The notes below the pieces were generated by a model. The model saw only the letters and a list, made by a program, of their open reading frames with translations. It was not told the origin of the DNA and made no database searches. A stretch of DNA of 64,000 nucleotides, from positions 15,781,548 through 15,845,547 of the forward strand of contig NC_049990.1 of NCBI RefSeq assembly GCF_000003815.2. Direction: 5' to 3'. Shown here piece after piece: positions 1,829 through 28,500 of this stretch. The DNA comes from Branchiostoma floridae (lineage: Eukaryota; Chordata; Leptocardii; Amphioxiformes; Branchiostomatidae). How positions within the stretch are numbered: position 1 is the first letter of the stretch; each line of letters begins with the position of its first letter. The position numbers were made by a program, and so were the translations under genes.

Positions 1829-1878
<50 letters not shown>

Positions 1879-3770: not shown

Positions 3771-3959
3771 NNNNNNNNNNNNNNNNNNNNNNNNNNNNNN
3801 NNNNNNNNNNNNNNNNNNNNNNNNNNNNNNNNNNNNNNNNNNNNNNNNNNNNNNNNNNNNNNNNNNNNNNNNNNNNNNNNNNNNNNNNNNNNNNNNNNNN
3901 NNNNNNNNNNNNNNNNNNNNNNNNNNNNNNNNNNNNNNNNNNNNNNNNNNNNNNNNNNN
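3771..3959. other. Assembly gap (189 N)
   Basis: A run of N lies inside the Thr-rich stalk exon of the left-arm receptor copy. The 21-bp repeats next to it are a likely cause of the assembly failure. Similarity between the two arms of the large inverted duplication ends within or beside this gap. Confidence 0.98.
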
Positions 3960-4385
3960 GCGTGTGGTTGTCATTCCTGGCGTTGTGATTGTCACTCCTG
4001 GCATTGTGGTTGTCACTCCTGGCATTGTGGCTGTCACCGCTGGTAGTGTGGTTGTCACTCCTGGTAGTGTGGTTGTCACTCCTGGTAGTGTGGTTGTCAC
4101 TCCTGGCATTGTGGCTGTCACCGCTGGTAGTGTGGTTGTCACCGCTGGTAGTGTGGTTGTCACCGCTGGTAGTGTGGTTGTCACTCCTGGTAGTGTGGTT
4201 GTCACTCCTGGTAGTGTGGTTGTCACTCCTGGTAGTGTGGTTGTCACTCCTAGCAATGTCGCTGTCACCTTTGTTGTGCGGGTCACGGGTGGCAGGGTGG
4301 ATGTTATATTCGCCAGTGAAGACGTTGTTGTACGATTATGACCAGTTGTCCAAAAAGATAAGTCGGTTGTAGAAGTCTGGTTTGT
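3960..4385 (-). CDS. Exon: Thr-rich stalk of left receptor copy, cut by gap
   Basis: The acceptor is TTTTAATTCCAG|ACA and the exon enters in phase 0. After about 45 residues rich in Thr and Ser it becomes a run of seven-residue repeats of the type TTTLPGV or TTTLPAV, encoded by a 21-bp DNA repeat. Such sequences are typical mucin-like, O-glycosylated stalks. The DNA repeat is far more uniform here than in the right arm, which suggests recent expansion. The exon runs into the 189-bp gap, so its end is unknown. Confidence 0.7.
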
Positions 4386-7300
4386 CTGGAATTAAAAGAA
4401 GACACGAAGTTAGAGGGGTCTAATTCATATATGAAAAGAAAATGGTAAAACGAGTTCGCACACAACGTTGTGGCTTTTTGTTTATTTCGTATCTGGCTGA
4501 AACGTTTGAAAGTATGAAATATCTCTATATACTCGTAAATTTGCGGAGTTCTTATCGACGTTTTCCTTTTAATCTTGTATATGTAACATCAGCTATCGTT
4601 TTACCAATGATGAATTTATTCATTATGTAAATGTCCCCATGCAATTTGGTTGCGATGTGGGCGGTCTGTACAAAATTTTAAGATCAAATAAATCATTATC
4701 AAGTCTGTTTCACAGAAGTTGTCTTCAGTCTTCACCACAACCTTATAGTCGCTCATTTAATGAAACTTTCATAATTGAATGCTAGTATTTCAGGCTACTT
4801 TTCTGTAATAGTTTTTATGTAGATACCAGAATCCCAATCGTAGTCACGTAGAGAGAACTGATATTAAGGACTAACTGTTGCTAGATACTTAGAGAGGAGA
4901 CTGACCGGGTAGATTTTTGTTGTGTTCTCCAGTGGACTGATGACATAAATGCCGATTATAACTCCCAAAGCAACTATGGTTGCCACTGAAACAGGAATGA
5001 TGATGCCGCGGACTAGACGTGAGCTGAGACATGTCAACCACCACCCTGTCTTACCTATGAAAATTCAATGATTAAACATAAGTTACAAAGACAGAAATTG
5101 ATGTTTTTAACAATGGTTGTCAGCATAGAATTTGTAACATCTACTGGCCAAACAAAATTACTAATGGAGAACTGTACAGAAAAATGACCACAAGACAGTT
5201 GTCGGCTGAAATTGCCATCAGAAGACCAACTAAAATGGTTGGGCCATGTTCTCCGGATGTCGGATGACCGTATCCCCAAAGTTGCTCTACATTGGGCCCC
5301 TGAGGGGAAGAGGAAACGGGACCGTCCTAAAGTTCCATGGAGGCGCACTGTGGCTTAAGACCTAGCGGCCATTGGGATCCCCTGGGATGCTGCTCAGCCC
5401 CTGGCACAGAACAGACCCCAGTGGAGGAAACTCATCACAGTCTTATACCACTCATGGGACGAAGACTGGGACGAAGAAGTTAAGTAAGTAATACAGAAGT
5501 AAAGATTTTAAGGCAAAAACAATGATTTGACAAAGTGTTTTTTTAGCTTTAGTTAGTTCTTCATGGCATTATCAACTATCAGATACAGACATAACCCAAC
5601 CTTAGACAAGCTCAGAGACCTTCAATTTACTTATGTCAAGTCATGTCATGTCCTGGTGCAATTTTCGTTTACATAGGACAGTGCATCTCTTCTGCCTTCT
5701 AAAAAGGAATCGTACTGACACAAACAATTGAGTTAACTCTTTATAACGTATCAGTATATAATACTTGTTCCCACTCAATTAAAGTGGCATGTGATTAGTC
5801 ATTTGTTACCTAGAACTCCTTATCATTATGTATAAGCGTAGATATTAGTCTTAGTGCTATGTACATGTATTACTCTCGATTTGCTTGTCATACATTGTAC
5901 CTGTACAACTGTTGCGCGATAAAGATTCTGATTGAATTGAAAATTGAATTAATGGAGTTCCACGTGAGTCATACCCACCTGGCTATATGATTCATATGGT
6001 AAAAACATAGAGACTGAGACTTATGTACAGAATCCCGAACGCCATAGATGCCACTGCCTCGGCGTTCATGAATTCAATATAATGTAATTTGCCAATAAAA
6101 GTAGTGATAGTGGTTCGTGAACACACAAAGAAAAATGTCAATGAGGCTGACTGAACAGGGGATGATTTTGGTTAACCCTCTTCACGATGGCAGAGTATAG
6201 TTTAGGGTACAGTTTAGATTAGTCATGTTGAGGTTTATTGAGGGGAACATACTACTAGACAGGTCACATTTAAAGACTATGGTGACACGTTGCCTAGTAA
6301 CAAGCCTTTGATAATAGCCTCCGTTTGTTGGGTAGCCCCGGTTGTATTTCTGTCTATACAGCCGAACAAATCAAATCAAAAACGTCTTGTCTGATTATCT
6401 GCTACTCATGATAACGGTGTGCATGGTTAGAGCATGGGACACAGTGTCCCTCTTCCCCTTTATGGGAAAAATAAACTCTAAAACCTACTAGCGGTGGGTA
6501 CCGGTACAGAAAATTCAGGCCCAGCTACGGTCCAGGTCCAAGGGATCAGGTCTAGGTCCGGATCTGAACCAGGACCTAACTATCAAAAACCGATTTTGTA
6601 CCTGGAAACCGTACCGGTATCCACCCCTAATACTATATGTACCTTTGTTGTGATCTTGTCGAAGTGCTCCAGACACGTAGGTTGGGTTGTTCAGCAGGCC
6701 CGAGTCGTCCTTCTGTACGTTGTTTGATGCTGTGGTGTTTTCCTGTTTATCAGCTCTCTGCCCTCTGTCTGCAGCAGGCTGCTGTGGCCTGTCGATGTCA
6801 TCTGTGTCGGAATTGTTGTACACGTGGTTTTCAGGGTCATCATTGCAGTCATCGGGTGTTCCGTCTTCTGGATTAATAATATATCGCAAGTCAATAGTGT
6901 CTATGTAGGAAAACATACTAAATATGACATCCATTCTTGTTAACAATGGGTTTGTTATGCGCCAATATGCTTTCACCAAATTGAAATTCACATTCTGACA
7001 TTATTTCCGAAAGTTTACTTAACTCTATCTAGACGTGGGGTATATATGATTATGCATTACACATTATTATTATGATATCAAATAAAATCCGAGCAGGCAT
7101 TCCTTAGTAATATGCAACCTCTTCGTGCTCCAGTCTGACCTAAGAAAATTCAATGATTAACACAGAAGTAAAGATTTTAGGGAAACCACAGTGACTTTTG
7201 CACAGAAGTTTTGGTTATTTTAGCTTGCTTCTTCGGGGCGTTATCAACTATCAAATACAATCAGAACCTTATCTAAGACAAGCTAATAGACTGTCAATTT

Positions 7301-10300
7301 ACTTATGTCCTGTCCTGATGCAATTTCCTTTTACATAGGCCAATATATCTCTGCTGCTTTTATAAAAAGGAATCATATTGACACAAACAATTGGTGTTAA
7401 CTCTGTATCATGTATCACTATATGATACTTGTTCCCATGAATTGAACCACTAAGCTTAAGTGGCATAGCGATTAGTCGAATGGTTTGCAACATTGTACCT
7501 GCAAAATTGTTGAGCAATAAAGATTGAAATTGAAAATTGAATCAAATGGAGTTCCACATGAGTCATACCCACCTGGCTATATGATTTGAATGGTTAAAAC
7601 ATAAGTAGAGAATCCAGAACGCTATAGATGCCACTGCCCTGGCGTTGATGAATTCAATATTATGGAATTTACCAATAGTTGTAATTGTGGTTGCTAAACA
7701 CACAAATGAAACAAATTGGAAATAATCAATGAGACCGAGGGACTGTATAGGGGATGATTTTGCTTAACCCTCTTCAATTGTCACATTTAAAGAATATAGT
7801 TTAGAGTAAAGTTTAAATGAGGCATGTTGAGGTTTATTTAGGGGACATGCTGTCGACATGCCAGGCAGGTCACAGTTAAAGACTATGGTGACATGTTGCC
7901 TAGTAACATCTTGTCTGATTATCTGATACTCAGGTATCAGATATGGTGAGTATGGTTCCCCTTTATAGGAAAAATAAACTCTAAAATCTAGCTACCTTTG
8001 TTGTTATCTTGTCGAAGTGCGCCAGGTACATAGTGTACATTGATTGATGATGCGGTGTCTTCTTGCTTATCAGCTCTCTGCCCTCTGTCTGCAGCAGACT
8101 GCTGTAGCCTGTCGATGCCATCTATGTCGGCATTGTGGTACACGTGGTTTTCAGGGTCATCACTGCAGTCATCGGCTGTTCCCTCTTCTGTGCTCCGTCC
8201 GGAACATCCTCGTGGCCTTGCCGTCAGTTCTGTGCAGTCAAGTTGAAAAATTACTGTATAGAAGTCATAGATTCACACGACGTAAAGTTAAAAAGTAACG
8301 AGAAATATTGGAAACTTCCTTCATCAATGCAATAAAAGTATTCATAATGTTTAAATGGTTTTCATCTACTTATATTTTGCAGCTTGTGCTTAGTTCATAG
8401 CACTTCTCGATGCTTCGGCACTTAGATGTAACATCCACGAATACGTGCAAAACATAACGTTAAAGACGTTTCAGCTTTTGCACGTTTTACTACCTTGCCA
8501 TATCTTGCTCATCATTGGGACATCATTTGGATCTAAGCAACGCTGTGTTTCTAAATTAATGGGCAAAAAAAGAAATCTCCACAGAATATTGGAACCTCAT
8601 ATTTCACGTACTATTAGTTTCGCGTCTTCCATTTGAAGAAAAAAATCATCAAAGAATACATCGTGAATTGGTCGCGATAAAAATCCGATGCAATCATCGC
8701 AAAACATTCTTGTGTTGGCACATATGCTCTGTTGTTCCAGACCAGTGATTGGAAAATAAATGCATCGATTTCGTTTGTATTCGACTTACAAGCTGCGGGA
8801 TTCATGTCGGGCACTAGAAATACTTTGTCAGATAATATTCTGTAAAAATCGTTCATTTTACCTTAATTTTCAATTAAAATGCCTATTTTTTTCATTCCAA
8901 ACACAACTAAATATTGATCATATCTGATTAATGTATACAATAAAGTCAGCATTGTCCCCAATATTGAACCTGGCCATAATCTACCCACCCCCAATTCAGA
9001 TTACTATAATAATACAGTCAAACCTGTCTATATTGGCCACTCAAGGGACTGGTCAAAATTGGCCGCTATAGAGAGGTGGCCACTATAGAGAATATGATAA
9101 TTAATTGACCACAAACAATAAGTTACACATGGTTCTAGTACCCACTGATCTTTATTCACATAATACAGCACTGTACTTGTACTGCAATGCTTTTTACACT
9201 ATAAAAGCTATAAAAAGTTTTAAATGTTCTACAGTTGATATTTTCTGAAGAGACCGGTATCGTCATATTTCTTTGATCTTTCGTCTTGTATCCTTTGATA
9301 CTTCGCCATCCGTGTGTTCCCTCCCGCGTTCACACGTTCGATTCACCCATTATGCTAATGTGGTACTCACAAGAAAAGTCTCGTCATTTTAGACTTATCT
9401 CTTGATAAATGTAAGAATAAAATCCACCACAGTCTGAAGTTCATATCATTTTGTCTTTGTAACAATTTATTTAGAAAGTTTTTGTGATGAAAATTAACCT
9501 AAGCGATAGTGTATTAGAACGTAACTTTAACGAAATTTACCTCCGTAATATTGGTGTCGTCTATTGACCTTATATGACTTCGTTTGTCGGCGGGTATGGG
9601 TAGCGCCAGTTTATGAAGTTTTGTTTTGAAAATAAATCAAAGAGGTTTTAAATCCGGCGTAGGGTGAAGATACGGCCGCTGTATATGGCCGAACGCGTGC
9701 CGAAACATAGATCAGCTGTCCGCGTGGCCGTAATCGGCAGTGTTTTTGTACCTGCGGGACCGGAAATCGTGTGGCCGCGGCCGCGTTGGACAGGTGGCCG
9801 CTAAGCCTATTTCTTAATCATTAAGAATCCAAGGGACCGACAAAAAGTGGCCACTATGGGCAGGTGGCCGTTATGCAAAGGTGGTCGCTAATACAGGTTT
9901 GACTGTATTATGATCCTAAAACACCTTCTTTCTGTAACATGGCACCAAGTATACAAACAAACAAACACACACACATACATTTGGCACTTCTACTTATATA
10001 CACATACATTTATACTTATTGGCAAAGCAAATCAACAAAACGATTTTGTACACAAGGTAATCAAAATTGCATTATACAATAAAGAAAACAACACTTCTAT
10101 CCCCTAAAGACAGTAATGCAATAAATTTCATTCATATTTTCAGATATAAGCGATACATATAAGGGCCTACGGACTTTATAACACTGACCATACAATACAA
10201 CAAGGGACAGTCAATACAACTTGCATTGCATAGATCAAATTTTCCAACCCCACCAGGAAAAACCAGCACATGCCAAGATACATCACTTACCTTCCTTCGC

Positions 10301-12367
10301 CTTGCAAGGTCACGTGTTTTACCCACTTGTGTAGACAAAAAATCAAGCCTGTTTCTCGTGCGCACGACACGACATACCAAGTAACTACCATTATAAGAAG
10401 CAAACATGTCCAGGCTACCACCTACCATCAGAAACAACTTCTGACTTCTGACCAGCCTTGGGTCAGAGCACAGATAGTACAGCTGACCAAGAAACTTTAT
10501 CCACACAGTCCACAGAGATAACCAACACGATAACAGAGTCACTAACCTGCCCTTGCTAAGACCACATAACTCATTCATAAGGGGGTGTTAACATTTTTTT
10601 CACAACACTGCAGATAGATCTACAACAACCTGCTAATGAACACTAAAAAGCAAAGGCTCACAGTGACTACCCACATACTAAACAGAATCGCAATCAATCC
10701 AGATGTTCTTAGGATTTATGACCAGAAACACAGACGAAAACCACAAAGATAAACGACCATGCAGGACCGGAGCAAACTGCTAGGGGGGCCATATAACCCT
10801 TATGTCAATAAGTATTTGCCAGCTAAACATGACGGCCACAGAGCATCAAGTGGTTTTATGTTGCAATCTATGGTTCCAATATTTATCTTCTTGTCGTTGA
10901 GATGTTATCAACAGTATACTTAAAAAAAATCAAATTTCTTTATAGTTTAATGATTTACTACTGAAGTGCCAAGGTCAATCACCAGGTGCCCAAATTGACC
11001 TTCACCATCTGATGTACTCATATACCCACCTGCTAAATACCACCCCAGTCCATCCAGTGGATCTTGAAATATACCCCCACACATCATATAGACCAAAAAC
11101 AGTAACTCCATTTTCATGGAGTTAATAACGATATTTATACTTCTTGATATTTGAAGCAGTGGCTTCCAGAAGATTCTTGACCTTGGGTTCAATAGCTTGT
11201 TTCTGACTCTACAAATAGACTATGGCACACCGCTTTAAGGATGGGGTGACGGTCTGCTGCAATATTTCAAACATGCTATTTTGGGGGCCAAATTTTCCTA
11301 GACATGTTTTCTTAGAACGACAACAAATATATCAAAAAGTCATGGGGAAGAAGGAGGCGCTAGGCTATAATAAAGGCAACTTATACCATAACAAGATTTG
11401 CTCTACGGATAAGGCAGTTAAAAGATGTATGGCTGCTAGCAATGGTTTCTCACAAAGGAGATATCTAAAGTATTAGATTAGATTAAGAATTACGTTTTCA
11501 TCCTTCCTCAAGCTTCATACAAGAAAAGGGTTTAAACCTTAAAGAAATAAAAAAATTGTAAGTATATCAATAACATCTCAACAACAAGCACATAAATATT
11601 GGGACCATATATTTCCAATGAAACCACTTGTAATGGAAATACTTTGCACTGCACCAATCTAAAACTTGATGTAAATGTCACAACCAGTCAGTTATTTTAC
11701 TATATAGTGTTGGAAATCTATATTTTCATGCCTAGACTTTACAGGTGCTTTCAATGATAACGGCTATAACTGGCCAAATTACGATAACGATATATTTTGG
11801 CGTTGATTCCGGACCTATTCTTCTTTACGTTAGATAGTACTATTCAATGAGCTTCATTAGATTAGCTTAGATTAGATTAGATTCATTAGATTTGATTCCA
11901 TTTTCAATTCAAAAGACGAAGAAAAGAAATGTAGCATATTTCAATATTACAACCTTCACAGAAGGTAGGATTTTCTTGAATCATTTCAACATCAATAAAA
12001 TGTCAAACGAAAACAATACTCATGATTATGGAATACAAACGACAAGTCGAATACCTATGCCAATAGAATACAAACGACAAGAATGTCTATGCCAAAGTCA
12101 ATAGACCCAATACCAATAGAATACAAACGACAAGAATACCTTTGTGTCCTGATTGTTGGGGTGAACCAGTCGCGTACATCGGGTTGACAAACAATCCAAT
12201 GACATTACCGCCTACAGTGACGGAATATGTGTTTTCACCGCCTTTCTTTGTGGCACGGATTTGCCGGAGGGTGGTGTTGTGATCCCTTCCGGCATGGTGC
12301 TTGACGTGACCGCCAGGAGTATCGTTACCTTCGTCGTTAGTCGATAATTCTACGGTATTGTCAATAC
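3960..12367 (-). CDS. Left-arm copy of a type II membrane receptor gene, 5' half only
   Basis: Five minus-strand exons with matching splice phases mirror the right-arm gene: 12367-12140, 8187-7996, 6867-6643, 5054-4906 and 4385 into the gap at 3959. In order they encode three cytoplasmic modules (all phase 1-1), one transmembrane segment (phase 1-0) and a Thr-rich stalk (phase 0). By position and charge the N-terminus is cytosolic. No PAN or lectin exon follows between the gap and position 1, where a satellite lies, so this copy either continues outside the window or is truncated. No frame break was seen in the five exons. A first exon is not certain; a candidate ATG lies at 14920. It is either a diverged paralogue or a truncated relic. 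Confidence 0.6.
4906..5054 (-). CDS. Exon: transmembrane segment of left receptor copy
   Basis: The exon has 149 nt, entering in phase 1 and leaving in phase 0 (ACCCG|GTCAG). It encodes GKTGWWLTC, a basic stretch SSRLVRG, a hydrophobic span of about 21 residues (IIIPVSVATIVALGVIIGIY) and ENTTKIYP with an N-glycosylation sequon. The positive charge before the span predicts a cytosolic N-terminus (type II). Its mirror is 26079-26227. Confidence 0.75.
5085..5490 (+). mobile_element. Non-LTR retrotransposon 3' coding fragment
   Basis: Plus-strand reading, with frame breaks, gives typical C-terminal reverse-transcriptase tail sequence: a CNIYWPNKITN-like block, WLGHVLRMSDDRIPKVALHW, then GKRKRDRPKVPWRR, a stop codon and an AQNRPQWRKL-like block. 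It ends in a TAAGTAAGTAA tail. The same insertion is present in mirror orientation at 25670-26050, so it predates the inverted duplication. The tandem sister intron near 7140 is an empty site. Confidence 0.75.
6488..6631. mobile_element. Short TIR element (MITE) beside a splice donor
   Basis: The ends are near-inverted GGTGGGTACCGGTAC and GTACCGGTATCCACC. It lies just past the donor of exon 6643-6867 and is absent from the right arm. A longer relative is at 40119-40558. Confidence 0.65.
6643..6867 (-). CDS. Exon: cytoplasmic module of left receptor copy (NPTY)
   Basis: The exon has 225 nt and is phase 1-1, between ATTAATCCAG and AAAG|GTACAT. It encodes an acidic, Asp/Asn-rich segment (GTPDDCNDDPENHVYNN) with an NNPTYVSGALRQD end. 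The right-arm exon 22221-22448 is very similar, with one extra Asn codon. A short TIR element lies in the intron about a dozen bases past the donor. No membrane segment is present; the module is predicted to be cytosolic. Confidence 0.7.
7996..8187 (-). CDS. Exon: extra cytoplasmic module of left receptor copy
   Basis: This 192-nt, phase 1-1 exon is a diverged tandem copy of exon 6643-6867. It shares DDPENHVY, the RADKQE block and the YVPGALRQD end, with acceptor GAGCACAG and donor AAAG|GTAGCT. It lacks the NNPTY motif, having a deletion and reading INVHYVPG there. The frame is open. The right arm has no equivalent: there, sequence just upstream of this exon joins directly to the segment upstream of the other module. 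Confidence 0.6.
9013..9907. mobile_element. TIR element, about 0.9 kb, no transposase seen
   Basis: It begins TACAGTCAAACCTGT and ends ACAGGTTTGACTGTA, a perfect 15-bp inverted match flanked by TA. Subterminal GGCCACTATAG-type motifs are repeated. Termini beginning CAGTCAAACCT resemble pogo/Tigger-type ends (family assignment is inference). No transposase frame is visible, so it is probably non-autonomous. It is absent at the matching point of the right arm. Confidence 0.7.
10291..10578 (-). CDS. Candidate exon of unknown function
   Basis: An open frame starts at the ATG at 10578 and reaches a strong donor (GAAG|GTAAGT) after exactly 96 codons, in phase 0. The frame stays open past the donor to 10132. 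It begins MNELCGLSKG and is Leu/Trp-rich near the N-terminus, then more hydrophilic and ending TRDLARRRK. I do not recognise the family. It lies in a segment found only in the left arm. It could be a chance frame. Confidence 0.2.
12140..12367 (-). CDS. Exon: cytoplasmic module 1 of left receptor copy (NPMY)
   Basis: The exon has 228 nt and is phase 1-1. The acceptor follows a TTTTGTCACAG tract and the donor is AAAG|GTATTC. It encodes a hydrophilic His/Asp/Asn-rich segment beginning GIDNTVELST and ending with VNPMYATG, then QQSGHKG. The right-arm counterpart at 20052-20303 has eight extra codons and reads NTMY instead of NPMY, so the NPxY motif is intact only here. NPxY motifs in cytoplasmic tails generally bind PTB-domain or clathrin adaptors; that role is inferred. 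A TIR element inserted about 33 bp upstream of the acceptor sits between this exon and the preceding one. Confidence 0.65.
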
Positions 12368-12399
12368 CTGTGACAAAATGATAATGTTTAAGTGTCTTA

Positions 12400-13094
12400 G
12401 AGTCCATTCCAAGACACCATGCGGATGTTTGTTGCCATTGTTTAGAATTGATTTTAAAGTTTTGTAATTATATGTCTAGGACATTTGATACTTCAGAAAT
12501 ATTTTTAACACTGTTTCGACTTTATAAATATTTCCCTGGTCCTATAAAACTTTGGAAATATTCATGGTGTGGAATTGGATACTTCTAATGGTTTCTAAAT
12601 AATGATAACAGCATTCTACCATTATTTACCATTTTCTACCATTTTTGTAAATGGTTCGGTGGGCTGGGAAGATAGCAATTCACACATCCTTGCAAAGTAT
12701 GGTTGGGTGCCATGCAACAATGGCCCACCACAAAGGATCCACCAGTGCCCAGCAGTGAAATCTAAAAATATACAGATGCAACAATAGGGCTTACTTTTAT
12801 GGGGGCAATAAACTAATTTTACCATTTGGCCAGGTTTACCATTTTTTGTAAATATTTGTAAATGTGAAATAATCACAGAGAGGTTTCACAATTATTCTAA
12901 ATAAAGATATTTTTGTACAGTTACTTTCAAAATGTTTCTAAAATATTCAAAGAAATTCAAATAAATGAGTATTTTCTTAGTCAATTTTTTTAGAATTATC
13001 TAATTATTGTGGCTCAGATATTCTTTTACTCAAAATAATTCAGACTAATTATAAATATCGCCTAAAAACCCTCATGGTGTCTTGGAATGGACTC
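12400..13094. mobile_element. TIR element, 695 bp, inserted next to a splice acceptor
   Basis: The two ends are perfect inverted copies (GAGTCCATTCCAAGACACCA at the left, its complement at 13073-13094). The interior is AT-rich with ACCATTTTTGTAAATGGT-like inverted motifs. The right arm lacks it at the matching point, where CATTAGACTT and TTAAACATTATCC are almost adjacent. The inner end lies about 33 bp upstream of the acceptor of exon 12140-12367. Confidence 0.8.
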
Positions 13095-13499
13095 TATCTT
13101 AAGGCTAATGCGCAGTCTTAAAGTAAAAGTCAAGTGAAGGAGAAATATCGCAACTTTCTAATCTAATCAACTAAAAGGTACCACATTCAGTATTGTGGGT
13201 TTTGGCTTGTTAGACAAGGGACATTAAACAGACCAACATCCAACTAAATCAGTTTGTTTTGTTATTTCTTTTAAAGGAATGTAACATTTTGATGATCGAC
13301 GAAAAGGGAAACATCTCGGTAAAATTAGCTATTTCTTTCCGTAAACACACTGACCTACATTTGCCAAAATGATAACCCATTTTGAAGAAGTCGAATTTAA
13401 ATAGATTTTAAAGTAAAGATGTGAAACGGGCCCGATCGATACAATGTATGATATGGAATTCTGGAGAATGAATTTTGTTAATGGTGCAACCCTTCTTAG

Positions 13500-13590
13500 A
13501 ATAATTCTAATGAAGAAGTAGTAATAGCCGTAGTAGTAGTAGTAGCAGAAATAGTATTAGGAGTAGCAGTAGTAATAGTAGCAGCAGTAC
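13500..13590. repeat. TAG/CAG-type triplet-rich tract
   Basis: Imperfect AGTAGT, AGCAGT and AATAGT triplets. A similar tract lies at about 14415-14520 on the other side of the mariner-like insertion. Confidence 0.6.
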
Positions 13591-14167
13591 TTCGAGGGGC
13601 GTTCAATTAGTAATAACTCTGACTCATTTCCCATAGCAGGAGATTAATGAAACTTGGCACAGTCTTTCTCTTCATAGGAACCACTCAGAGTTATGCATTT
13701 CTCCCATCGTTTGATGCAGCCCTGGACACCGTTTTTGTAGGACAACCCAGGTTGGTCCTCCAACAGATGCCTTATCAATGGCAGAAGAGGGACGACCAGG
13801 TCTGGGAGCTGTTTCCACAGACTTTCGGCCATGTTTGAATTCAGGATGCCAGCGTTTTACAAGGTCATATGATGGGGGCATCATCACCATAAGTTTCTTT
13901 CATTTCACCAAAAGTCTCCTTTGGTGTGCGTCCTTTCAAATACAAAAACCGGATCACTTCGCGACACTCAACTGGCTCCATTTCACACCTGGTCCATTTC
14001 GCACCTAACTCAGTTCAAACACCAGTAAATCAGAAACCACAATTAGTTCAGAGGTTTTTTTTTTAAACATAAACTATAGAGGTATGAATCGATACACATG
14101 CAAAATTTCATTTAGATCAAACAACTGGAAGTGAGTTAGAGTTATTACTTATTGAACGCCCCTCGTA
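13591..14167 (-). mobile_element. Mariner-like element, internally deleted
   Basis: The terminal inverted repeats are CGAGGGGCGTTCAATTAGTA and its near complement ending TTGAACGCCCCTCG, followed by TA. On the minus strand, frames at 13672-14008 resemble the N-terminal DNA-binding part of a mariner transposase: PSYDLVKRWHPEFKHGRKSV followed by PRPGRPSSAID. No DDD/E catalytic region is present, and the coding part is broken. It is absent from the matching place in the right arm, so it inserted after the duplication. Confidence 0.75.
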
Positions 14168-14862
14168 ACAGTAACTGGTAGTAATATTACATACAACATT
14201 GACCTCTTGCTCATCCATGCTCACTCCATATCAATATCTGGACCATATATAATTTGGAACAAGCTGCATTGCATATTTGTAGTTATAGCTGTACCAAGGA
14301 GTTTAAACTGGTCGTCTTGAGGGTATAAAAAGGACAACACAGTGTCAAATCGGGAATACTGGATAATGAATTTTCTGTACGCTCCCACCCTTAAAAAACA
14401 ACTCCAGAATACGTCAATAGTACTTGTAGTTTTAGTAGTAGCAGGAGAGCTAGTTGTAGTAGAAGTAGTAGTAGTTAATTGAAATAGTAGTTGTTGCTGT
14501 TGTAGTAGTAGTGAAAGCAACATAGCAACACTTGAAATAGATTGGAACGTTGTGTTGCCTTGACACCCAACCCCCGAGGCTGAGTTTTTGCTCCTCCGTG
14601 ACATATTATTAGTCACCGCATGTTGATATCTGTACAATAATACAGCGTAACGAGTAAATATGGCTGATATTGCACTATGGCTGATGTTGTTTCAAGCATG
14701 TAAATGGAAGCTCAAAAAGTTGCTCAAGCACCTGCGTTGAGAAAACTGATAATCCCACATCCGACCGATACATTTTTAGGACGAAACGCCTGTATATAGT
14801 CCTTATCGACCCAATTTTGTTTTGCTCATAGACATATTTCTGGTGGTTCTTTTTGTCATTAC

Positions 14863-14920
14863 TATGTATAAACTGTTTCATCAATCTATAAAAAATATTG
14901 TCAGTCTTGGTGTCATTCAT
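14863..14920 (-). CDS. Candidate first exon of left receptor copy
   Basis: The ATG at 14920 opens MNDTKTDNIFYRLMKQFIH and reaches a possible donor (CATA|GTAATG) in phase 1, which would join exon 12367 correctly. The mirror sequence at 19589-19655 has the same layout. The differences between the two are mostly amino-acid changing and the donor is weak, so this is speculative. Confidence 0.2.
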
Positions 14921-15789
14921 TAATGCTCATTATCATACTTTATGCGGAAAAGGAGCTGGAAGAACTCACATTTTGCTTAAAAAAATCTATCATACTCTAA
15001 AATCTATCAACTATCTTAACAATCGTTTCGTCTGATCAGTTTCTAACAATAACGTTGATGTTAAAATTATACTGATATTATAATCATGTTATTTCATAAG
15101 AAAAGATATGAAAAGTTAACGTTAGGAATTTACGACATAACGTTACGTATGCGTCATAGTCTCCCACCTCGACAATATCTACTTTACTTTAGCTCAGGTA
15201 TATTTTCTTTAAAGATATCTTATTTGTTACTTAAAAAATCAATTGGGAATATTTTCACTTGTATAAGCACAGATAATTAGTGCGAATTATCTTCAAGCAG
15301 AATTATGAAAAACCACTGAAATACCAAGTTTCTTTCCCAAAAGTTGTTTTCTTTTCTTAACAACTATAAAATGTTGCCTTAGTTTCAAAGATGATTCCTG
15401 TTATTGTGGGCGATCCGACCCGCGGTCGGGCTGGGACCGAGGGTGATACGAAATATACGTGTTGTATTTTATTTAAGTCAAACCCAGGTCGGAAAACAGT
15501 GATTTAATTGTCAAACTACTATAAAAATGATAAAATTAGACACATTGTTTCAACCTGAGCCCACAACTTTATTCTTAAAGAACATCAATTCGAACATCAA
15601 CTCCGTTCGCTTGCAGTGGAGTGCATGGAGTGCGTTCTATTTAATCGATGGAAGTCTATGTGACACAGCTAAGATTAAGTAAGAAGCCTGTGGAAAATAA
15701 TCATCTGCACTCTCCTTTCATACAGGGATGACAACGCTCTGTCAAGTCAAGGTTATAAACAAACGATTCAGGGGACAGTAGTTTCTTAC

Positions 15790-17204: not shown

Positions 17205-17814
17205 ACACACACATGATCACTAATATAATTGTCTGGTTATTGTTTAATTCTCAGTCCCTTTCAATTCTATGACGAACAATCAACCCCTCCCAATCAATGG
17301 CGTAAACAAAGATATTTTCTAGTTTCTCTTACAAAGCGATAGAGATGTTAAACAAATGTGGGTCTTATGTGTCTGATCATATGGAATAGATGTAGCAAGC
17401 GAAACCACGAGAACTTTGAAACTTCTTCTTGTCAATTAATGATATAACACGTTATAAGTCCATGGGCCAGAGAAGAGATCGGTACCTCCAGGATGGCCTG
17501 TGGTATATATTTTGATGTGATAGCCATTCTGGTATAGTAGCTTCATAACGGATATTAGCCTTCAAACCTATCACCATCAAAATGATCCGGAAATTTCGTG
17601 TCTTAAACAATTAAGAGGGAGGGGCATAAAATCAACATTAATATTTTTCAATGAAAATTAACTGATTGATAGAATTTATATAATGAGGGATAGTTTTGTG
17701 CATTAGGAGGCTCGTTTTGTTTTGTTTCGTCTTTTCGTGTGCGTATATCTATGAGTTCATGTTGAAAAATTCAATAAAGAAGGAACACAATTAGAAAAAT
17801 ATGAAATAGAATAA
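17205..17814. other. Spacer of the large inverted duplication
   Basis: Recognisable mirror sequence on the left ends at GACAAAGAGAAAC (near 17203), and on the right begins at TTCTCTTTGTCATG (near 17817). The roughly 600 bp between them are AT-rich and non-coding by eye. If both arm genes are active, this region lies between two divergent 5' ends and could hold shared promoter sequence. Confidence 0.5.
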
Positions 17815-18059
17815 AACTTCTCTTTGTCATGAAAACGTTTCATAACAGCAGTACAGAAACATTTCCATGACGTCTATCAAATTATTTCGATAATGGAAAT
17901 CACCTTCATGTCGTCTCATGTACCACGAATATAACCTTAGAGAAATATAAGATAAACACGTATATTTCATCAAACTCTCGCATTAGTCATTAAGTCATTA
18001 AATAAAACCTGATTGATTTTGGAGTAATGTACATTCTGTTTCTTTGTACTTAAATGTCG

Positions 18060-18960
18060 GCTTGTTGACGACGCCTCAGGGGAGTCGTCAAGTGGTATAT
18101 ATTGCGTTCAGTCTGCAAAAATTCTAGGAATTGCACAGGACTTTTTCCACAGGAATGCATTATGCTGGGTATGCATACCCCCCCCCCCCCTCAAATCTGT
18201 TGTATCTCTGGTATGCAATGGTGGAATGTAGGTCACACTGGCTCCCTGGAGGAATTTGTCCTTTGAAACAGGAAAACAGGGAAACTCTGCACAATGGATC
18301 ACGTTGTCTTGGTTGTTATGTTATGTTATGAAGGATACATTTTCTTTTCTAGAGCTTGTTCAAGCCATACGCCACAGGCAGACAGGAGTACTTCATATAG
18401 AGGTCATGATCTTGAATGATGGCATCCAAATGGTTATCATACACACACTGTAGTGCTCAGCTGTAGGTTTAGGTTAGTGGCAGACCATTTTGCTGTACCA
18501 GGGATAGTACATTTCTGCTGGCTGTAGGTTTATGTTACAGGTGGGATCGTATATTGTGCCAGGGATAGTGCGACAGGGAAGTTCCAGTCTATTTCTGAAA
18601 ATTTGAGCTGTATTGTTGTTCCCCTCAATCGTCGTCATGGCAATAATATTTTTATTGCCAGTCTTGTTTTGACATTTGTTCAAACTGATTTGTACTCCTT
18701 TTAGCTGTCGACATCTTACGTGCTGCATACGATTTTTCATTAATATTTTTCTATAATACACCAGATGATGATTCTTATTATTATTATGATTTTATTTACA
18801 TTAACTTTCACCAGACAATTTTGTTGCGTGGGCGTCGAGTTCTCTTAGTCTAGGCTGGTTCCAGTATTCTGGTCTCTCTGTTACTCGACAGGCGATGGCT
18901 ACACAGGGAGGTATTCATATTGGGGTATCGTCTCCATCATTAGACGGACATGCAGGTATG
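18060..18960. other. Right-arm-specific insert, no gene seen
   Basis: The left arm has only about 140 bp at the matching place (about 16760-16900). It contains a C run at 18179-18190 and a repeated GGGATAGTACATTT/GGGATAGTG block near 18500-18560. No coding region can be supported. Confidence 0.4.
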
Positions 18961-19588
18961 TTCTTGTTTGGCTGAATTGAATTTTAACTCTTATCCGATC
19001 GTATGGGTCGTATCTACCTACAAGCGTATATTCATATCTGCCATATCAATATTTTTTATCGGAGAAATTAATTTCCTTCTTTGAGTTTGTATACATGCCT
19101 TGGGACGTCTAACAAATGTTCACTGAGCTTAGCAAAATTGCTGTATAAGCTATACTGTACTTGAAAGTTTGTGCCTGGTTCGGCGGGGTCCAAACCGTTG
19201 GACCCCAGCAAATTTTATATATATATATTATATATACTACGTATACCTTGTATCTAGAAATGTCACTTTAATAACGGGGATTCTTTATCAATGCAATTAA
19301 AGCAACGGTGTATAGTTGCCTAAAAAAGAAAATAACTTTTGGGAAAGAAATTCAGTCTTTAGTGTAAAACGTGGTGCATTAATTATGATAATTAGCTATT
19401 AATTATCTGTGCTTAGACAAGTGAAAATATTCCTAACCCTCTCTTATGAAATAACGTCAACATTTCTTTTCACAAATTGAAAAGACGAAACGATTGTTAA
19501 AAAGCTGGAGTATGATAGAATGTTTTTTTTTGGGGGGGGGGTTCTAGCTCCTGGCTCCGTTTCGCCATAAAATGTGATAATGAGCATC

Positions 19589-22500
19589 ATGAAACATGAC
19601 AGTGACACCAAGACTGAAAATATTTTTCATAGATTGATGAAACAGTGTATACAAAGTAATGACAAAAAGAACTAACAGAAATATGTCTAAATCTTTTTTA
19701 AATCGACTTCATCCAAGTAATTTATTATTTTGGCAAACCCCATTGTATACTATGTAGGTACTATTACCAAAATAAATACATACATAATTTAACCGAAATG
19801 TTACCATTTTCGCCTTCAAATGGTTAAGTTCCAAAAAAGAAAAAAAAAACTGATTTTGTTGGACGTTGGTCTGTTAACTATCCCATACCTTAAAAAGTCA
19901 AAACCCACAATAGTGAATGTAGTACCATTTAGTTGATTGGAAAGTTTTTTCCGACATTTCTCTTTCACTTGAGTTTCACTTTCAGACAGCGCATTAGACT
20001 TTTGGTATGATTTTGGAAAAAAAACAATTAAACATTATCCTTTTGTCGCAGGTATTGACAATACCGTACAATCATCGACTACCGACGAAGGTAACGATAC
20101 TCCTGACTGCCATGTCAACCACAACACCGAAAGGGATCACAACACCACCCTCCGGGAAATCCGTGCCTCAAAGAAAGGCGGTGATCCAGCAAATGACATG
20201 GAAGCAAGGGGCACGTTTACCGTAACTGTAGGCCGTAATGTCATTGGATTGGCTGCCAACACGATGTACAAGACTGGTTCAGCCCAACAATCAGGACACA
20301 AAGGTATTTATGTCGTTTGTATTCTATTGGTATTGACATTGACATAGGTATTCTTGTCGTTTGTTTTCTATTTCCATGAGTATTGTTTTCGTTTTACGTT
20401 TTATTGGCATTCATGTTGAAAGCTTTTGAGGTACCTCCACTTCTTAGTCCTGTAACTTTTTAATGCTGTAGACATAATATCTGACAATTGTAAGAATTTT
20501 GACGCTATTATGTGGTAATATAACGTAATTATGACGCCATCATTTTGATTGTATTGGCTGGATTGGATTGGATTTTTGTCAAAAACGCCAGTGCATACCA
20601 ACACGAAAAATTGAAATTTTTTTTCATACTTCTTGATATTGTTGCCAACAATATCTAAGTAAAACGCACCAAATTTTGTGGCTCTAGCGTATTCCGTTCT
20701 AGCGTTATACGACATGAAAGTTGGCGTAGGCCTCAAAAGCCAATAAATATCATTAAGTAATGTTTAACTACTAAAAAGGTATCATAGTTACAAATTAGCC
20801 GTTTGTTTGACATGCGACCTTAACAGTATTACTAAGATGAAATTATGTTTGGGTTGAAAGAAATAGGCATTTTAAGCGAAAGGTAAGGTAAAGTGGCCGA
20901 TTTTTCACAGAATATTATCTGACAAAGTATTTCTAATAAATGACATGAATCCCGCAGCTTGTAACTCGAATACAAACGAAGTATATTCATATATTTTCTA
21001 ATCACTGGTCTGGAACAACAGGGCACGTGTGCCAACACAATTATGTTTTTCGATAATTGCATCGGATTTTCATTGCGACAAATTCATGATGTATTCTTTG
21101 ATATTTTTTTCTTCAAATGAAGGGCGTGGCATATGTCTTGATAATCATGTTAATGTTTATTCTAAAAAACTAATGGTACACGGGATATGACGTTCCAGTA
21201 CTCTATGGAGATTTCTAGCCCATAAATTAACAAAAAATAGGCAAGGTAAAAACGTTCAAAAGTTGAAAATTTTAAGGTGGTAAACTTTATGTTTACACAT
21301 ATTCGTGGATGCTACATCTGAGTACCGTAGCATCAAAAAGTTCTATGAACTAAGTACAAGCTGCAAACTATAAGCAGATAAAATAGGATTTTCAAAGCAG
21401 CAAATTCTGGGCGGTTTGTTATTGATTCCAGATGTTGTTTACGACAAAAATGCCACAACCAAGCACAATCCTCCGATCTCTGATTGGCCGAAGATAGTGA
21501 CACTCCATGTGGCCATCTTCTTGGAATTCTCTCTCAGCCATTCACGTGACACTTCCATTCTAGCTGTAGCACAAGCAACAGCAAAGCTTGTGTCTCTTGC
21601 GGTCTAGTCAAAAAGACGATTTTCCACCCGACTGCCCCGTACCTCCGTGCCAAAATTCACACCTCTCCAAATAACTACTTGCCGATCAAGCAATTTGTCA
21701 TTGCGGTCGTTGCATTATGGTCATTACAAGAACCTATACCTAGTCTACCTTTAGTTTCGTTCAACTTCTACACCGTTTCTATATTCTGCATTTAAACGTT
21801 ATAGATACTTTTATTGAGTTCATGAATGAAGCTTCCAATGTTTCTCGTTACTTTTCTTTCCTATCGGTACACCGTGTGCATCTATGACTTCTATACTGTA
21901 ATTTTCATACTTGACTGCACAGAACTGACGGCAATGCCACAAGGGTGTTCCGGATGGAGCACGGAAGAGTTTGCATATTACTAAGGAATAACTGCTCGGA
22001 TTTTATTTGATATCATAATAATAATGTGTAATGCATAATCATACATACCCCGAGTCTAGCTAGGGTTAAGAAAACTTTCGGAAATAATGTCAGAATGTGA
22101 ATTTCAATTTGGTGAAAGCATATTGGCGCATAGCAAACCCATTGTTAACAAGAATGGATGTCATATTTAGTATGTTTTGCTACATAGACACTATTGACTT
22201 GCGATATATTATTAATCCAGACGACGGAACACCCGATGACTGCAATGATGACCCTGAAAGCCACGTGTACAACAATTCCGACACAGATGACATCGACAGG
22301 CCACAGCAGCCTGCTGCAGAGATAGGGCAGAGAGCTGATAAACAGGAAAACACCACAGCATCAAACAATGTACAGAAGGACGACTCGGGCCTGCTGAATA
22401 ACCCAACCTACGTACCTGGCGCACTTCGACAAGATCACAACAACAAAGGTACAATGTAAATTTTAGAGTTTATTTTTCCTATAAAGGGGAAGAGGGACAC

Positions 22501-25500
22501 TGTGTCCCATGCCCTAACCATTCACACCATTATCATGAGTAGCAGATAATCAGACAAGATGTTTTTGATTTGATTTGATTTATTCAGCTGTATAGAAAGA
22601 AATACAGCCAGGGCTACCCAACAGCCGGAGGCTGTTATCTAGGACTTACTGTCACCATAGTCTTTAAATGTGACCTGTCTAACAGTATGTTCCCCTCAAT
22701 AGACCTCAACATGCCTAATCTAAACTGTTCTCTTAATTATACTCTGCCATCGTGAAGAGGGTTAACCAAAATCATCCCCTGTGCAGTCTCATTGACATTT
22801 TTTCTTTGTGTATTCACGAACCACTATCACTACTTTTATTAGCAAATTGCATTATATTGAATCCATGAATGCCAAGGCAGTGGCATCCATGGCGTTCAGG
22901 ATTCTCAGTCTCTATCTTTTAACCATATAAATCATATAGCCAGGTGGGTATGACTCACGTGAAACTCAATCAATTCAATTTTCAATTAAATCTTTATCGC
23001 GCAAGAATTGTACAGGTACAATGTATGGCAAACAAATCAATACATGTACAGAACTCTAAGACTAATATCTACGCTTATACATAATGATAAGGAGTTCTAG
23101 GTAACAAATGACTAATCACATGCCACTTTAACTGAGTGGGAACAAGTATTATATAGGGATACGTTATAAAGAGTTAACTGTTTGTGTCAGTACGATTCCT
23201 TTTTAGAGAGTGATAAAGGGACAGATGTGTCCTCCGGGACGGTTTCATCTGATGAAAGTGAACGTACCGGCTACGACAGCGGCTACCACAGCGGTGACGA
23301 GGAGGAGTGGACACTCTATCGAGACTTGACCATCGCACTTCCTCACCAGCCAGGCGATGTTCCTCAAAGTGTCATCAAAGAGACGAAGCGCGCTGGCAAA
23401 AAGTTTTATCTAATAGAGTTCGCTGCGTTGCCTCGTTACAGCAATGAGATTGTACACAGCAAGAACTGGGTCTCAGAACAGACATTGATGAAAAAATATG
23501 GTTACCTCGTCCTGAAGTAATGTGAGGTCGCCATATCGCTTGCAGTACAACTTTTCTTTCCTAATGTGATACCATGCTTGACATATAGGACAAGATGCAC
23601 GTTGATTATGAATTCCATGATACATTTTTGATCGACGTCAAATGATAGTAAAGTGTTACCAAACAGCATTACCGTACACTAGTGTCTTTTGTGTTGTTGT
23701 ATTGATAAATGCTCACCTTATAGACACGTATTCGTTACTTACCAAAATATATTTACTCAGTTATTTACTCCGAAGCAGTTTTATTTACTCCGGAGCAACA
23801 CGTATAGCTACTCCAAAGCAATGGTTCACTGCATGTACATATAGATGGTACATATTCGTACGTACATGACAAATATACTTACAACGAATATACTTACTCA
23901 CTTACTCCGGAGCATACTCCGGAGCAGTGTTTTTACCCCGGAGCAGATTTTTTACTCCGGAGCAGTGTTTTTACTCCGGAGCAACGCGTATAGCTACTCC
24001 AAAGCAATGGTTCACTGCATGTACATATAGATGGTACATATTCGTACGTGCATGACAAATATACTTACTTACAACAAATATACTTACTCACTTACTCCGG
24101 AGCATACTCCGGAGCAGTGTTTTTACTCCGGAGCAGTGTTTTTACTCCGGGGCAACACGTATAGTTACTCCAAAGCAATGTTTCACTGCATGTACATATA
24201 GATGGTATATGTTCGTACGTACATGACAAATATACATACTTACAACAAATATACTTACTCACTTACTCCGGAGCATACTCCGGAGCAGTTTTCTTTTACT
24301 CCGGAGCAGTTTTCTTTTACTCCGGAGCAGTTTATTTTACTCCGGAGCAGTTTTTTTTACTCCGGAGCAATACATATAGCTACTCCAAAGCAATGATTTA
24401 CTGCATGTACATATAGATGACATATGTTCGTACGTACATGACAAATATACTAACTTATTACAACAAATATACTTACTCATTTACTCCGGAGGATACTCCG
24501 GAGCAGTTTTATTTTACTCCGGAGCAGTGTTTTTACTTGCTTGGGCGTGTTCATTGTAAAATTTACGTCATGATGATGCAAACGTGTGCAGTTAGAAGCC
24601 AACAGAGACATTGTACAACCGACGGGTACTTGTCGTGCCGCCGACGGTCAAGCCGCGTGTTCATTGCAAAATTTACGTCACGATGATGCAAACGTGTGCA
24701 ATAGAAGCCAACAGAGACACTGTACAACCGACGGGTACTTGTCGTGCCGCCGACGGTCAAGCCATCCGTCCCATCCACGTTGGTGTAACAACCAGTTACC
24801 CGCATAGTCGCAAATCAACGTCGCTAACTCGGTGGAGATGGCGTCGGTACTTCCTTCATGGCATACTGTTCGTGAACGTTGACACATACGTCCACGGCGA
24901 AAGACATTGCGGTAACGAGTCGACCCCAGTTTAATCGTTCCTCTTGCAGTACTTTTTCGAGCACCGTTTCCAGCCCATCCCACGCGTTGGGTACGTTGTC
25001 CATGAAGCTGTCAGTAATCTTTCCATATTCCTCTTCCGCCGAGATCGCATCCACCCATTGTATTACTTTTACGTACGCCACGGAACTGGGGCGTCGTCAG
25101 TGCTCGGAAACCAAGCCTAGGGCTTTGTGATATAGTAACTGACGAAAGACGTCTTTTGTTTGTGTTTTCAGCGCAGCCATTAAAGACTGATCTCAGCAGA
25201 TTTAACCGGTTGATTGACTTAGAGACATAGAACCAGGCCAAATAAGGACATGTCTTTCACAATTGGGGAGGGGGAGGATTATTTGGGGTGGGGCGGGGGT
25301 TCTCTATCAAAAGGTCGGCCTGACCCCTATTTCACCCCTGCTCAGATCTAACAAAATACCTATTCCCCTAGATTTTGCCGTCATAACCTAACCTCTGACC
25401 TGCTCCTGAATAAATTATATGTGACCTATGACCTGCGCCTGAATACATAATAGTTAACCTCTGAACTGCGCCTGAATAAATTATATCTGACGTGAATCTG

Positions 25501-28500
25501 AACCTGGCCTGAATACATATCAGCAGGCGATGACCTTTGACCTGCGCCTGCTTGCGCCTGAATAATAATAGTCAGCGTGTCCCTACTATACTACTCCTGA
25601 ATAACCAAGCTAAAAATAACTAACACTTTGTCAAATCACTGTTGTTGCCCTAAAATCTTTACTTCTGTGTTACTTACTTATCATGAGTGGTATAAAGCTG
25701 TGATGAGTTTCATCCACTGGGGTCTGCTATGCTAGGGACTGAGCAGCATCCCAGGGGATCCCAATGGCCGCTAGGTCTTTAGCCACAGTGCGCCTCCATG
25801 TAACTTAAGGACGGTCCCGTTTCCTCTTCCCCTCAGGGGCCCAATGTAGAGCAACATTTGGGATACGGTCACCCGACATCTGGAGAACATGGCCCAGCTA
25901 TTTTAGTCTTCTGATGGCAATTTTAGCCGACAATTGTCTTGTGTTCGTTATTCTGTACAGTTCTCCATTACAGATTTTGTTTAGCCAGTAGATGTTACAA
26001 ATTCTATGCTGACAACCATTGTTAAATACATCAATTTCTGCCTTTGTAACTTTTGTGTTAATCATTGCATTTTCTTAGGTAAGACTGGGTGGTGGTTGAC
26101 ATGTCTCCGCTCCCGTCTAGTCCGCGGCATCATCATCGCTGTTTCTTTGGGATCCTTGGTTGCTTCGGGAGTTGTAATCGGCATTTATGTCACCGGTCTA
26201 CTGGAGAACACAACAAAAATCTATCCGGTCAGTCTCCTAAGTATTTAGCAACAGTTAGTCCTTAATATACGTTCTCTCTACATGACTACGAGTAGGTTTC
26301 TGGTATAGTCTTAAAAGCTATTACAGAAAAGCAGCCTGAAAAACTAGCATTCAATTATGAAATTTTCTTTAAAAGGTCGGCAGTAATAGGGCCTTCACAC
26401 GGAAATCGAATTAGCAGGAATCAAGCCGAACAAGTCGGAATGAAGTATTTGCAAAATTCGTAACACATTCGGGGCCATTCCGAGCGGGGGTTCCAAATGG
26501 ACTTGATATCCCCTTCATACGAGAAAGAATGAGCAAGAATGCCGTCAGAATGAAAATTCTTTTCTATTCCTGGGAATTCGTAGTGTATTCTAGAAATTCG
26601 TACTGCATTCGAGATATTCTTTTGGCCACATTCGGGTAGGATTCGAAGTGGCTTGCCTTTTCGGTTCTCCTTCGAATGAGATAAAAACGTTTCGAAGAAT
26701 GTTGGAATGCCACAGAATGAGGTCAGACTGCAGTTAGACTAGTTAGAATCCACTTAGAATCCATTTGGAATGCCATTCGATATTTCTACACTTCGAATGC
26801 ACCTCGACAGTTTTTGACATGTCAAAAACTTTCGAGCCAGCCAAAAGAACGGGGACGAATATCTGGAACGCAGTACGAATGTTTAGAATACAGTACGAAT
26901 TGCGAGGAATTGCCACGAATAGAAAAACATTTTCATTCGGACGGCATTCCGACTCAATCGTGCTCTCGTGTGAAGGGGGCTTTAGGTTGTGGGTAGGAAA
27001 ATTTCTTCGAAACAGACTTGATAACGATTTATCTGATTTTGAAATTTTGTAAATTTTTTACATCGCAGCCAAAGGCTGATTTTCATACTTTGACATGATC
27101 AGTAAAATCATTGTTAAAACAATAGCTGATGTTACATATACAATATCGAAAGGAAAACGTCGATAAGAACACCACAAATTTACAAATTATTTCATACTTT
27201 TGAACTTTTCAGTCAGATACGAAAGAAATAAGAAGCCACAATGTTGAGTACGAACTCGTTTTAGAGTTTTTGGTTTCGCATATCACTCTCTGTTTCTAAT
27301 AATATTATTCGTATTTCATTATGAATTTGACCCCTATAGCGTTGTTATCTTCACTTAGCTCCATACAAAACAGACTTCTACAACCGACTCATCTTTTGGG
27401 GCAACTGGTGATGATCGTACAACAACGTCTTCACTGACAAAGGTGACATCCACCCTGCCGCCCGTGACACCAACAACAAAGGTGACAGCGACAATACCAG
27501 CCTTGAAAACCACAATGATAGGAGTGACAACCACAATGCCAGCCGTGACAACCAAACTGCCAGGAGTGACAACAAAAATACCAGCAGTAACAACCACAAT
27601 GCCAGGAGTGACAACAAAAATACCAGCAGTAACAACCACTGTGCCAGCCTTGGCAACCACATTGCCAGTTGCGACAACCATACCGCTAGAAGTGATTTCG
27701 AATCTGCCGGATCTGACAACGACATACAAAAAGGTAACAAGATTGTCCTACATTCGAAGCGTTCACATGGAAATGTGCAATTTTTACTTGTTTTGTTTGT
27801 CCTATTTTGAAATACATTGACTTAATTATGTTTTTACAAAATTCAATGTCTTTGAACCATTTCTCATTTCTTGATTGAGATTTCATGTGATTTTTTTTCA
27901 TAGAAATACATTAATTTAAGATAAGCGTGATACAGTTTTTTTTCTTATTACTCTAGTATCTGTTACTTACGACCAGTGTGACGCGACGGAGCAAGTATCT
28001 TGAGACTACGAAGCAAGAGACGTCAACATACATGAAAGGTAAACACTGCTTTGGCTTTTGGACATTTCTTCACTTCGGTAACATTATCAACCAATGAATA
28101 AAAGAAATGCTAAGTAATGTATTTGTAACCACTGCTAGATATCTTTATTGTACGGTTTATGGTAATATATTTGTTTCAGAAATACATGAGCCATATACGT
28201 GACGCTTTATCTAAATTCACTTCACATGGGACGTAAAATACTTGACGTCCGATGTATTACAGAAACGTCACACTTACGTGTGGCATACGTAACGTATTTT
28301 TATCAATAACTTAGTTAACGATTGAGTAGGACGTGACTTATGTCCACGTCCCACTTTGTAGAACGTACGTGACGTGTTTTGACAGATCCTTGTTTAATTC
28401 ACGTCACGTGTGCCACAAAGTACGTGGCGTCTATGGCAATATATTTGTTTCAAAAATACGGGAGCTATATACGTGACGTTTTTCCTAAATTCACGTCACA

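Follow-up and report, generated by a model that had tools for sequence, protein, structure and literature searches.

The stretch of Branchiostoma floridae DNA analysed here (contig NC_049990.1, hereafter C12, positions C12:15781548-15845547; 64,000 nucleotides, referred to as the window) contains the 5' parts of two receptor genes, left and right, which face away from each other in two inverted arms. The window was compared with itself and with the genome (513 Mb in 431 contigs), and as the whole-genome searches score the best candidates only, counts derived from them are lower bounds. The comparisons suggest that an inverted duplication gave rise to a divergent pair of type II receptor genes, that the left gene subsequently lost its start, and that a tract of right-type DNA was added to it, a history which, taken as a whole, we consider probable. 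The left and right arms of the window are termed wL and wR, those of a copy on contig C10 are termed C10L and C10R, and two further relatives at C12:16.978-16.996 Mb (minus strand) and C15:0.8625-0.8695 Mb are termed C12b and C15, respectively. The arms and the spacer between them are as follows:

3962..17136, minus strand: left arm, with the 5' portion of the left receptor gene (15-block inverted chain; 13.2 kb)
17137..17843, unstranded: spacer of 707 bp; 82% identity between 17197-17847 and the inner right arm of the C10 copy
17844..27695, plus strand: right arm, with the 5' portion of the right receptor gene (inverted chain; 9.9 kb)

Self-comparison of the window against its own reverse complement, the dot-plot-type check that had been proposed, identified 15 colinear inverted blocks, running from 17136 to 4055 on the minus strand and from 17844 to 27695 on the plus strand. 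The best colinear chain between the reverse complement of the left arm and the right arm comprises 5310 aligned columns at 81.5% identity and scores 5101 bits, while 19 of 20 shuffles of the left arm in two-base blocks scored 0 bits and the last 39 bits, three other reverse-complement stretch pairs from the window scored 245-269 bits, and the arm in direct orientation scored 0 bits. Colinear inverted homology thus extends across exons and introns well beyond chance, as in an inverted segmental duplication, and the original prediction of mirrored arms is upheld by the gap between 5101 bits and at most 269 bits in the controls. It also holds that the exons occur in mirror order (tail exon 1, tail exon 2, anchor exon and stalk exon in both arms), that the arms differ by insertions and that they measure roughly 10-13 kb; the spacer is 707 bp long rather than the 600 bp predicted. 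Identity amounts to 72-84% in the 11 centre-proximal blocks, 87-95% in three distal blocks (7132-4756) and 74% in the outermost block, which bears the repeat-containing stalk. The block 18964-19211/16783-16558 contains a genome-wide repeat and therefore carries little weight for the duplication. The left arm stops at a run of N (3771-3959) that hides its distal end, and the only other such run in the window lies at 46478-47055, so that none falls at the centre. Parts of the long left intron (pieces within 9900-10907) were considered as a left-arm insertion, which was rejected as they are common to C15 and partly to C12b, and are unmatched in the right arm. The spacer itself includes a repeat (17492-17674) with many genomic copies, several of which form plus/minus pairs approximately 1-10 kb apart, like transposon ends.

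The exons assigned to the right gene are located as follows:

18895..18955, plus strand: start exon (MATQGGIHIGVSSPSLDGHA) with phase-1 donor GTATGT, conserved in C10R, C10L and C12b
20052..20303, plus strand: tail exon 1 (phase 1-1), with NTMY
22221..22448, plus strand: tail exon 2 (phase 1-1), with NPTY and YNNS
26079..26240, plus strand: membrane-anchor exon, 3' end tentative
27359..27740, plus strand: Thr/Pro-rich stalk exon with 21-bp repeats, ends approximate
30141..30377, plus strand: PAN exon downstream of the stalk (PF00024, E 2.9e-06)
32792..38278, plus strand: C-type lectin exons at 32792, 36013, 36917 and 37895, downstream of the stalk (PF00059 for 32792, 36013 and 37895)

The C-type lectin exon at 36917 was identified by its 93% identity to that at 36013. 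The genes have the appearance of type II membrane receptors, with tail exons, a membrane anchor and a Thr/Pro-rich stalk, followed in the right gene by exons for PAN and C-type lectin domains. The right-side exons are ordered and carry Pfam lectin domains, and phase 1 is common to the start exon, the two tail exons and the acceptor of the anchor exon; a single transcript may run from the tail through to the lectin exons. The anchor-exon donor is tentative, wL and C15 being 4 nt longer than wR at this site. On C10 the order of PAN and then lectin exons is the same, with two extra pieces of C-type lectin and an F5/8C-type exon (E 3.3e-12) between the stalk and the PAN exon; a second F5/8C-type piece on C10 is weak (E 0.021). 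The right gene is presumably the working one.

The corresponding elements of the left gene are:

16783..16787, minus strand: site without approximately 130 bp that include the start exon (right 18835-18963); from comparison with four relatives
12140..12367, minus strand: tail exon 1, open frame, with NPMY (NTMY in the right gene)
7996..8187, minus strand: tail exon 2A, native left-type, without the NPTY stretch; type from its intron
6643..6867, minus strand: tail exon 2B, right-type, NPTY kept; type from its intron
4889..5054, minus strand: membrane-anchor exon, 3' end tentative
3960..4391, minus strand: Thr/Pro-rich stalk exon, entering the N gap

The start exon is kept, with the same ATG, reading frame and GTATGT donor, in wR, C10R, C10L and C12b, and is missing in wL; a match to its surroundings also lies at C15:853721. 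The prediction of two receptor genes accordingly stands for the right gene, and falls short for the left one, which lacks its start exon and past whose stalk no PAN or C-type lectin exon was found in readable DNA (four peptides, E up to 1e-3; window 1-3960 and the non-N portion, approximately 16.8 of 30 kb, beyond it). A weak C-type lectin match occurs just past the stalk in C12b, and a left-type ectodomain may therefore sit in the unread part. C12b also keeps the start exon, and tail exon 1 was not found in it. The left tail and anchor frames stay open and an in-frame ATG at 12407 reads into tail exon 1, so that a new start is possible; the left gene would be either a decaying copy or one that is now started in some other way. 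Ratios of non-synonymous to synonymous substitution rates (dN/dS), all from small counts, range between 0.78 and 1.52 in five of the six pairs for tail exon 1 (0.29 in wR-C10R) and between 0.22 and 1.52 over the 15 pairs for tail exon 2, where three pairs exceed 1, namely two of the five that involve the left unit A of exon 2A, and C10R-C15. These values are compatible with a pseudogene and with a functional left gene alike.

The head-to-head centre, with start-exon parts of both genes, is also present on C10, a contig of chromosome size. C10:1144852-1175746 matches window 15049-48574 piecewise, with most long blocks 88-93% identical, and the match includes the left-type start region, the spacer and the right gene. 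Both start exons survive on C10, and tail exon 1, tail exon 2 and anchor exon searches listed no match on its minus strand. The inner arms extend further there (1146023-1146787 against 1148692-1147965, 78%), with approximately 1.2 kb between them, while a shorter centre, with its junction at 17190/17197, is common to the window and C12b. As the centre is gap-free and C10 carries the same head-to-head centre and right gene, albeit within one assembly, a centre produced by misassembly is unlikely.

The kinship of the arms was assessed in segment trees from the rows wL, wR, C10R, C10L, C12b and C15, where present; six segments yielded a tree, and S7b, with three rows, was left without one. In three of the six (S2, S4 and S8), wR and C10R are split at bootstrap 100 from the left-type rows, which are wL, C10L and C12b in S2 and wL, C12b and C15 in S4 and S8. 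Holding wL together with wR is rejected in these segments by the approximately unbiased test (p-AU 1.4e-4, 9.5e-8 and 6.7e-95, respectively). The left-type rows of S2 (C12b at C12:16.996 Mb) are separated from the right-type rows by a branch with support 100/99, and the left/right split would therefore predate the copying of the centre between chromosomes, such that the duplication looks older than the window locus. C12b pairs with C10L in S2 (94/95) and with wL in S1, and in S7, the anchor exon, wR and C10R group together at 97/98. Identity between wR and C10R is 80.2% in S1, 89.9% in S2, 91.5% in S6, 90.8% in S7, 92.7% in S7b, 92.6% in S8 and 96.7%, without gaps, in S4.

Within the left gene, a tract of right-type DNA adds a second tail exon. 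Its extent and the mark by which it can be recognised are:

5000..7132, minus strand: right-type tract comprising exon 2B, intron 2 and the pre-anchor intron; approximately 2.1 kb, the end at ~5000 being approximate
21969..22219, plus strand: 250-bp segment ending at the exon-2 acceptor, a right-type mark also found in left unit B, that of exon 2B (6869-7117)

Constraint or simple conversion was at first held to account for the high distal identity (87-95%); this was dropped and the comparison moved to the introns, because exon 2 is also conserved in C15 and C12b (90 and 92%). In intron 2 (S6) identity is 93.9% between wR and unit B, 91.9% between C10R and unit B and 91.5% between wR and C10R, while unit B is only 82.7-83.6% identical to C15, C12b and unit A. 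The S6 tree places unit B with wR and C10R (100/100) and unit A with C15 and C12b (100/100), and holding units A and B together is rejected (p-AU 7.2e-6). When the left gene was scored in 34 windows of 150 bp (9000-3901), 15 consecutive ones (7200-5101) were right-like, and the remaining 19 comprised 15 left-like, three tied and a single right-like window (8850-8701). The 250-bp segment is present in wR, C10R and unit B, and absent from unit A, C12b and C15. It was also considered as a genome-wide repeat and rejected as such, since the search returned at least five places (six rows, one place being split). It resembles DNA preceding the right-gene C-type lectin exons at 33775-34034 and 36569-36822 (78 and 82%); unit B and C10R are its other places among the matches listed.

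At the upstream junction of the tract, a 10-nt stub of a left-type anchor-exon start (GTCAGACTGG, against GTCAGGCTGG in C15) is fused at TGG to right position 21955, and at its far end the tract stops close to the anchor exon or inside it. The tract is entered at a 3-bp microhomology and left by homology. Since a template switch or an unequal exchange would leave such marks of non-homologous entry and homologous return, the best reading of the tract is that it derives from template switching or unequal exchange with right-type DNA, and not from ordinary gene conversion. Ectopic gene conversion has homologous borders and leaves copy number unchanged, whereas here one border is a 3-bp microhomology and an exon 2 was added. 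The earlier proposal of gene conversion between the arms is borne out only insofar as DNA of the other arm's type is found inside the left arm; the segment is an addition rather than a plain conversion tract. The anatomy (entry at a few bases, a copied segment and a donor that is kept) is that of microhomology-mediated template switching, from which we infer the mechanism. Microhomology-mediated break-induced replication, as outlined in an excerpt of PMC2621351, shares the non-homologous entry at 3 bp of microhomology and the kilobase-scale copied segment; the present case, in contrast, is deduced from one germline junction and returned by homology. Inverted duplication would have produced a divergent pair of type II membrane receptors (cytoplasmic tail, anchor, mucin-like stalk and lectin-type ectodomain), with separate upstream DNA for each gene. 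On reaching the start of the anchor exon, DNA synthesis in the left arm would then have switched at the 3-bp microhomology to a right-type template immediately upstream of tail exon 2, the opposite arm being the simplest candidate, and would have copied approximately 2.1 kb before returning by homology at the next anchor exon.

Several points weigh against this history. Part of the right-left identity in exon 2 reflects constraint, as C15 is 90% identical there. The window's own right arm is a candidate donor only: wR groups with unit B at 92/86, a tree in which wR and C10R are sisters without unit B is not rejected (p-AU 0.073), and several windows score unit B higher with C10R than with wR. 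S1, the segment nearest the centre, gives no right/left grouping and a tree unresolved (49) save for wL with C12b (94), and in it wR is nearer to C10L (88.8%) than to C10R (80.2%), which a simple history does not predict. S7 places wL weakly, wL with wR being rejected (p-AU 0.021) and wL standing next to wR and C10R at 89/90. The trees are rooted by midpoint, and dN/dS near 1 for tail exon 1 in most pairs leaves constraint unclear. A two-step history could likewise have produced this structure, namely an old tandem repeat in the left gene followed by conversion. Under such ordinary ectopic conversion the left gene would have copied its own exon 2 in tandem and the second copy would later have been overwritten by right-type DNA, in keeping with the right-type character of unit B over approximately 2.1 kb and the homology at the far end; it appears unlikely, however, given that the 10-nt anchor stub is joined non-homologously about where the 250-bp mark begins, that two events are needed instead of one, and that most non-crossover tracts in B. 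floridae are shorter than 200 bp according to the abstract of PMC12500494. The same source gives an amphioxus heterozygosity of 3.2-4.2%, which, together with the gap-free 96.7% identity of the right-arm segment S4 between C10 and C12, would suit an assembly artefact, with the arms as folded alleles or the C10 copy as a misplaced haplotype of the window. This is very improbable, as identity is 72-84%, far below the allelic level, in 12 of the 15 blocks between the arms, no N occurs at the centre, and wR is 80-93% identical to C10R in the remaining six segments; furthermore, no colinear match is found past window 48574 in the C10 sequence examined (to 1180000) and no left-gene tail or anchor exon is listed at C10.

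It was also predicted that the head-to-head pair could share a promoter. Bidirectional-promoter pairs are usually defined by two intact start sites facing away from each other within about 1 kb. Here the left gene is without its start exon, the ATG of the right gene (18895) is situated 1051 bp into its arm and the C10 start codons are 3661 bp apart, and the prediction is not borne out. Upstream DNA is present in both arms (17136-16909 against 17844-18066, 74% identity), so that a shared promoter is not required. Retention of the pair for a two-way promoter co-expressing two partner receptors would accord with the head-to-head order on C10 and again on C18, and with the divergent orientation of all three anchor-exon pairs within 25 kb among at least 13 places (a cut-off picked after seeing the list). 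It is nevertheless highly unlikely: besides the distance between the C10 starts, the left gene is broken in both chromosomal copies, at opposite ends (without the start exon here, and with no tail or anchor exon found on the C10 minus strand), an indication that the arms do not form a unit around one promoter, and copies without a visible partner occur on C15 and at C12:16.98 Mb. Rather than being governed by one common switch, the arms have exchanged and lost parts.

The anchor-exon genome search returned these at least 13 places, and the three pairs within 25 kb are those in the window, at C18:5.081/5.098 and at C18:12.986/13.003; three divergent pairs of three would be expected in 1 of 64 cases under random orientation, with the cut-off chosen afterwards. 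When the tail exon at C18:12.988 served as query, at least 13 rows were listed, the query among them: identity is 96% to its tandem neighbour and 91% to the pair-partner exon at 13.0007 Mb, while the other ten rows comprise eight at 71-76% and two short pieces (58 bp at 84% and 41 bp at 93%). In the C18 pair at 12.99/13.00 Mb, three tail-exon matches fall in the gene on the minus strand and two in that on the plus strand. From the identity within it, this pair arose, or was homogenised, on its own, and is perhaps a second head-to-head pair independent of that in the window. As the C18 tail exon is 91% identical across the pair against 71-76% in the eight other longer matches, head-to-head inverted pairs may even be a recurrent engine of this receptor family, in which the arms serve as mutual inverted templates and switching adds or removes cytoplasmic tail exons (NPTY, YxN), so that partner receptors would have their signalling tails reshuffled while the ectodomains diverge, although we regard this as doubtful. 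If the C18 pattern reflects the same process, it would point to a testable way for signalling tails to change within a chordate receptor family.

The kind of event described here is already known, and the present case is well documented. Inverted (head-to-head) segmental gene duplications with later exchange between paralogues likewise show inverted arms, mirrored exons, unequal decay and one tract of the other type; in the window, by contrast, the exchanged tract was added rather than replaced and the exon count of the recipient gene changed. It provides a clean case of a gene in a mirror pair gaining an exon by copying partner-type DNA, with the junction, a donor-type marker and event-free relatives in one genome. 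The literature search, covering titles and abstract beginnings among the matches listed, found no description of this gene pair. In excerpts of the respective papers, tandem duplicates are commoner in B. lanceolatum than in vertebrates (PMC9673378), and a claimed high rate of new domain combinations in lancelets is disputed (PMC4967905). A lancelet family combining fucolectin, two C-type lectin domains, CUB and APEC, as presented in part of PMC12373286, resembles the genes described here in its lectin-type immune proteins, given the C-type lectin exons of the window and the F5/8C-type exon near the C10 copy, and differs from their type II anchor, mucin-like stalk and PAN exon; in the frames scanned, Pfam gave no match to APEC or CUB. 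The sea urchin Sp185/333 cluster is also a clustered immune family, and in the section of PMC3091723 available the terms segmental duplication and gene conversion are often used; its proteins, however, are unrelated and its genes small, with two exons.

Some further elements were observed in the window. A 244-aa open frame at 15704-16435 (minus strand), with CPGCGQ and a charged part, lies in a left-arm-only insert and may be a retroelement piece; a Pfam scan of it gave nothing above cut-off. A Bcl-2-like fragment in two frames (24681-25096, minus strand; PF00452, E 1.8e-06 and 0.06, both under the curated cut-off) is located within the insert 23207-25607, which is unmatched in wL, C10R, C12b and C15. 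The PAN exon has at least 103 protein matches in the genome, 16 rows of which (itself included), on 10 contigs, are at least 80% identical, and its surroundings have DNA copies of approximately 0.35-1.2 kb at 76-93% identity on many contigs, as if the exon had moved with a dispersed repeat. The lectin-exon segment occurs in two tandem copies that are 92-94% identical (33751-34086 with 35965-36501, and 36545-37394), the first of which contains a reverse-transcriptase element (34200-36019, minus strand). Finally, an alpha/beta-hydrolase exon is located at 59855-60289, and two more copies of it (94-96%) are found 13-21 kb to the left of the window.

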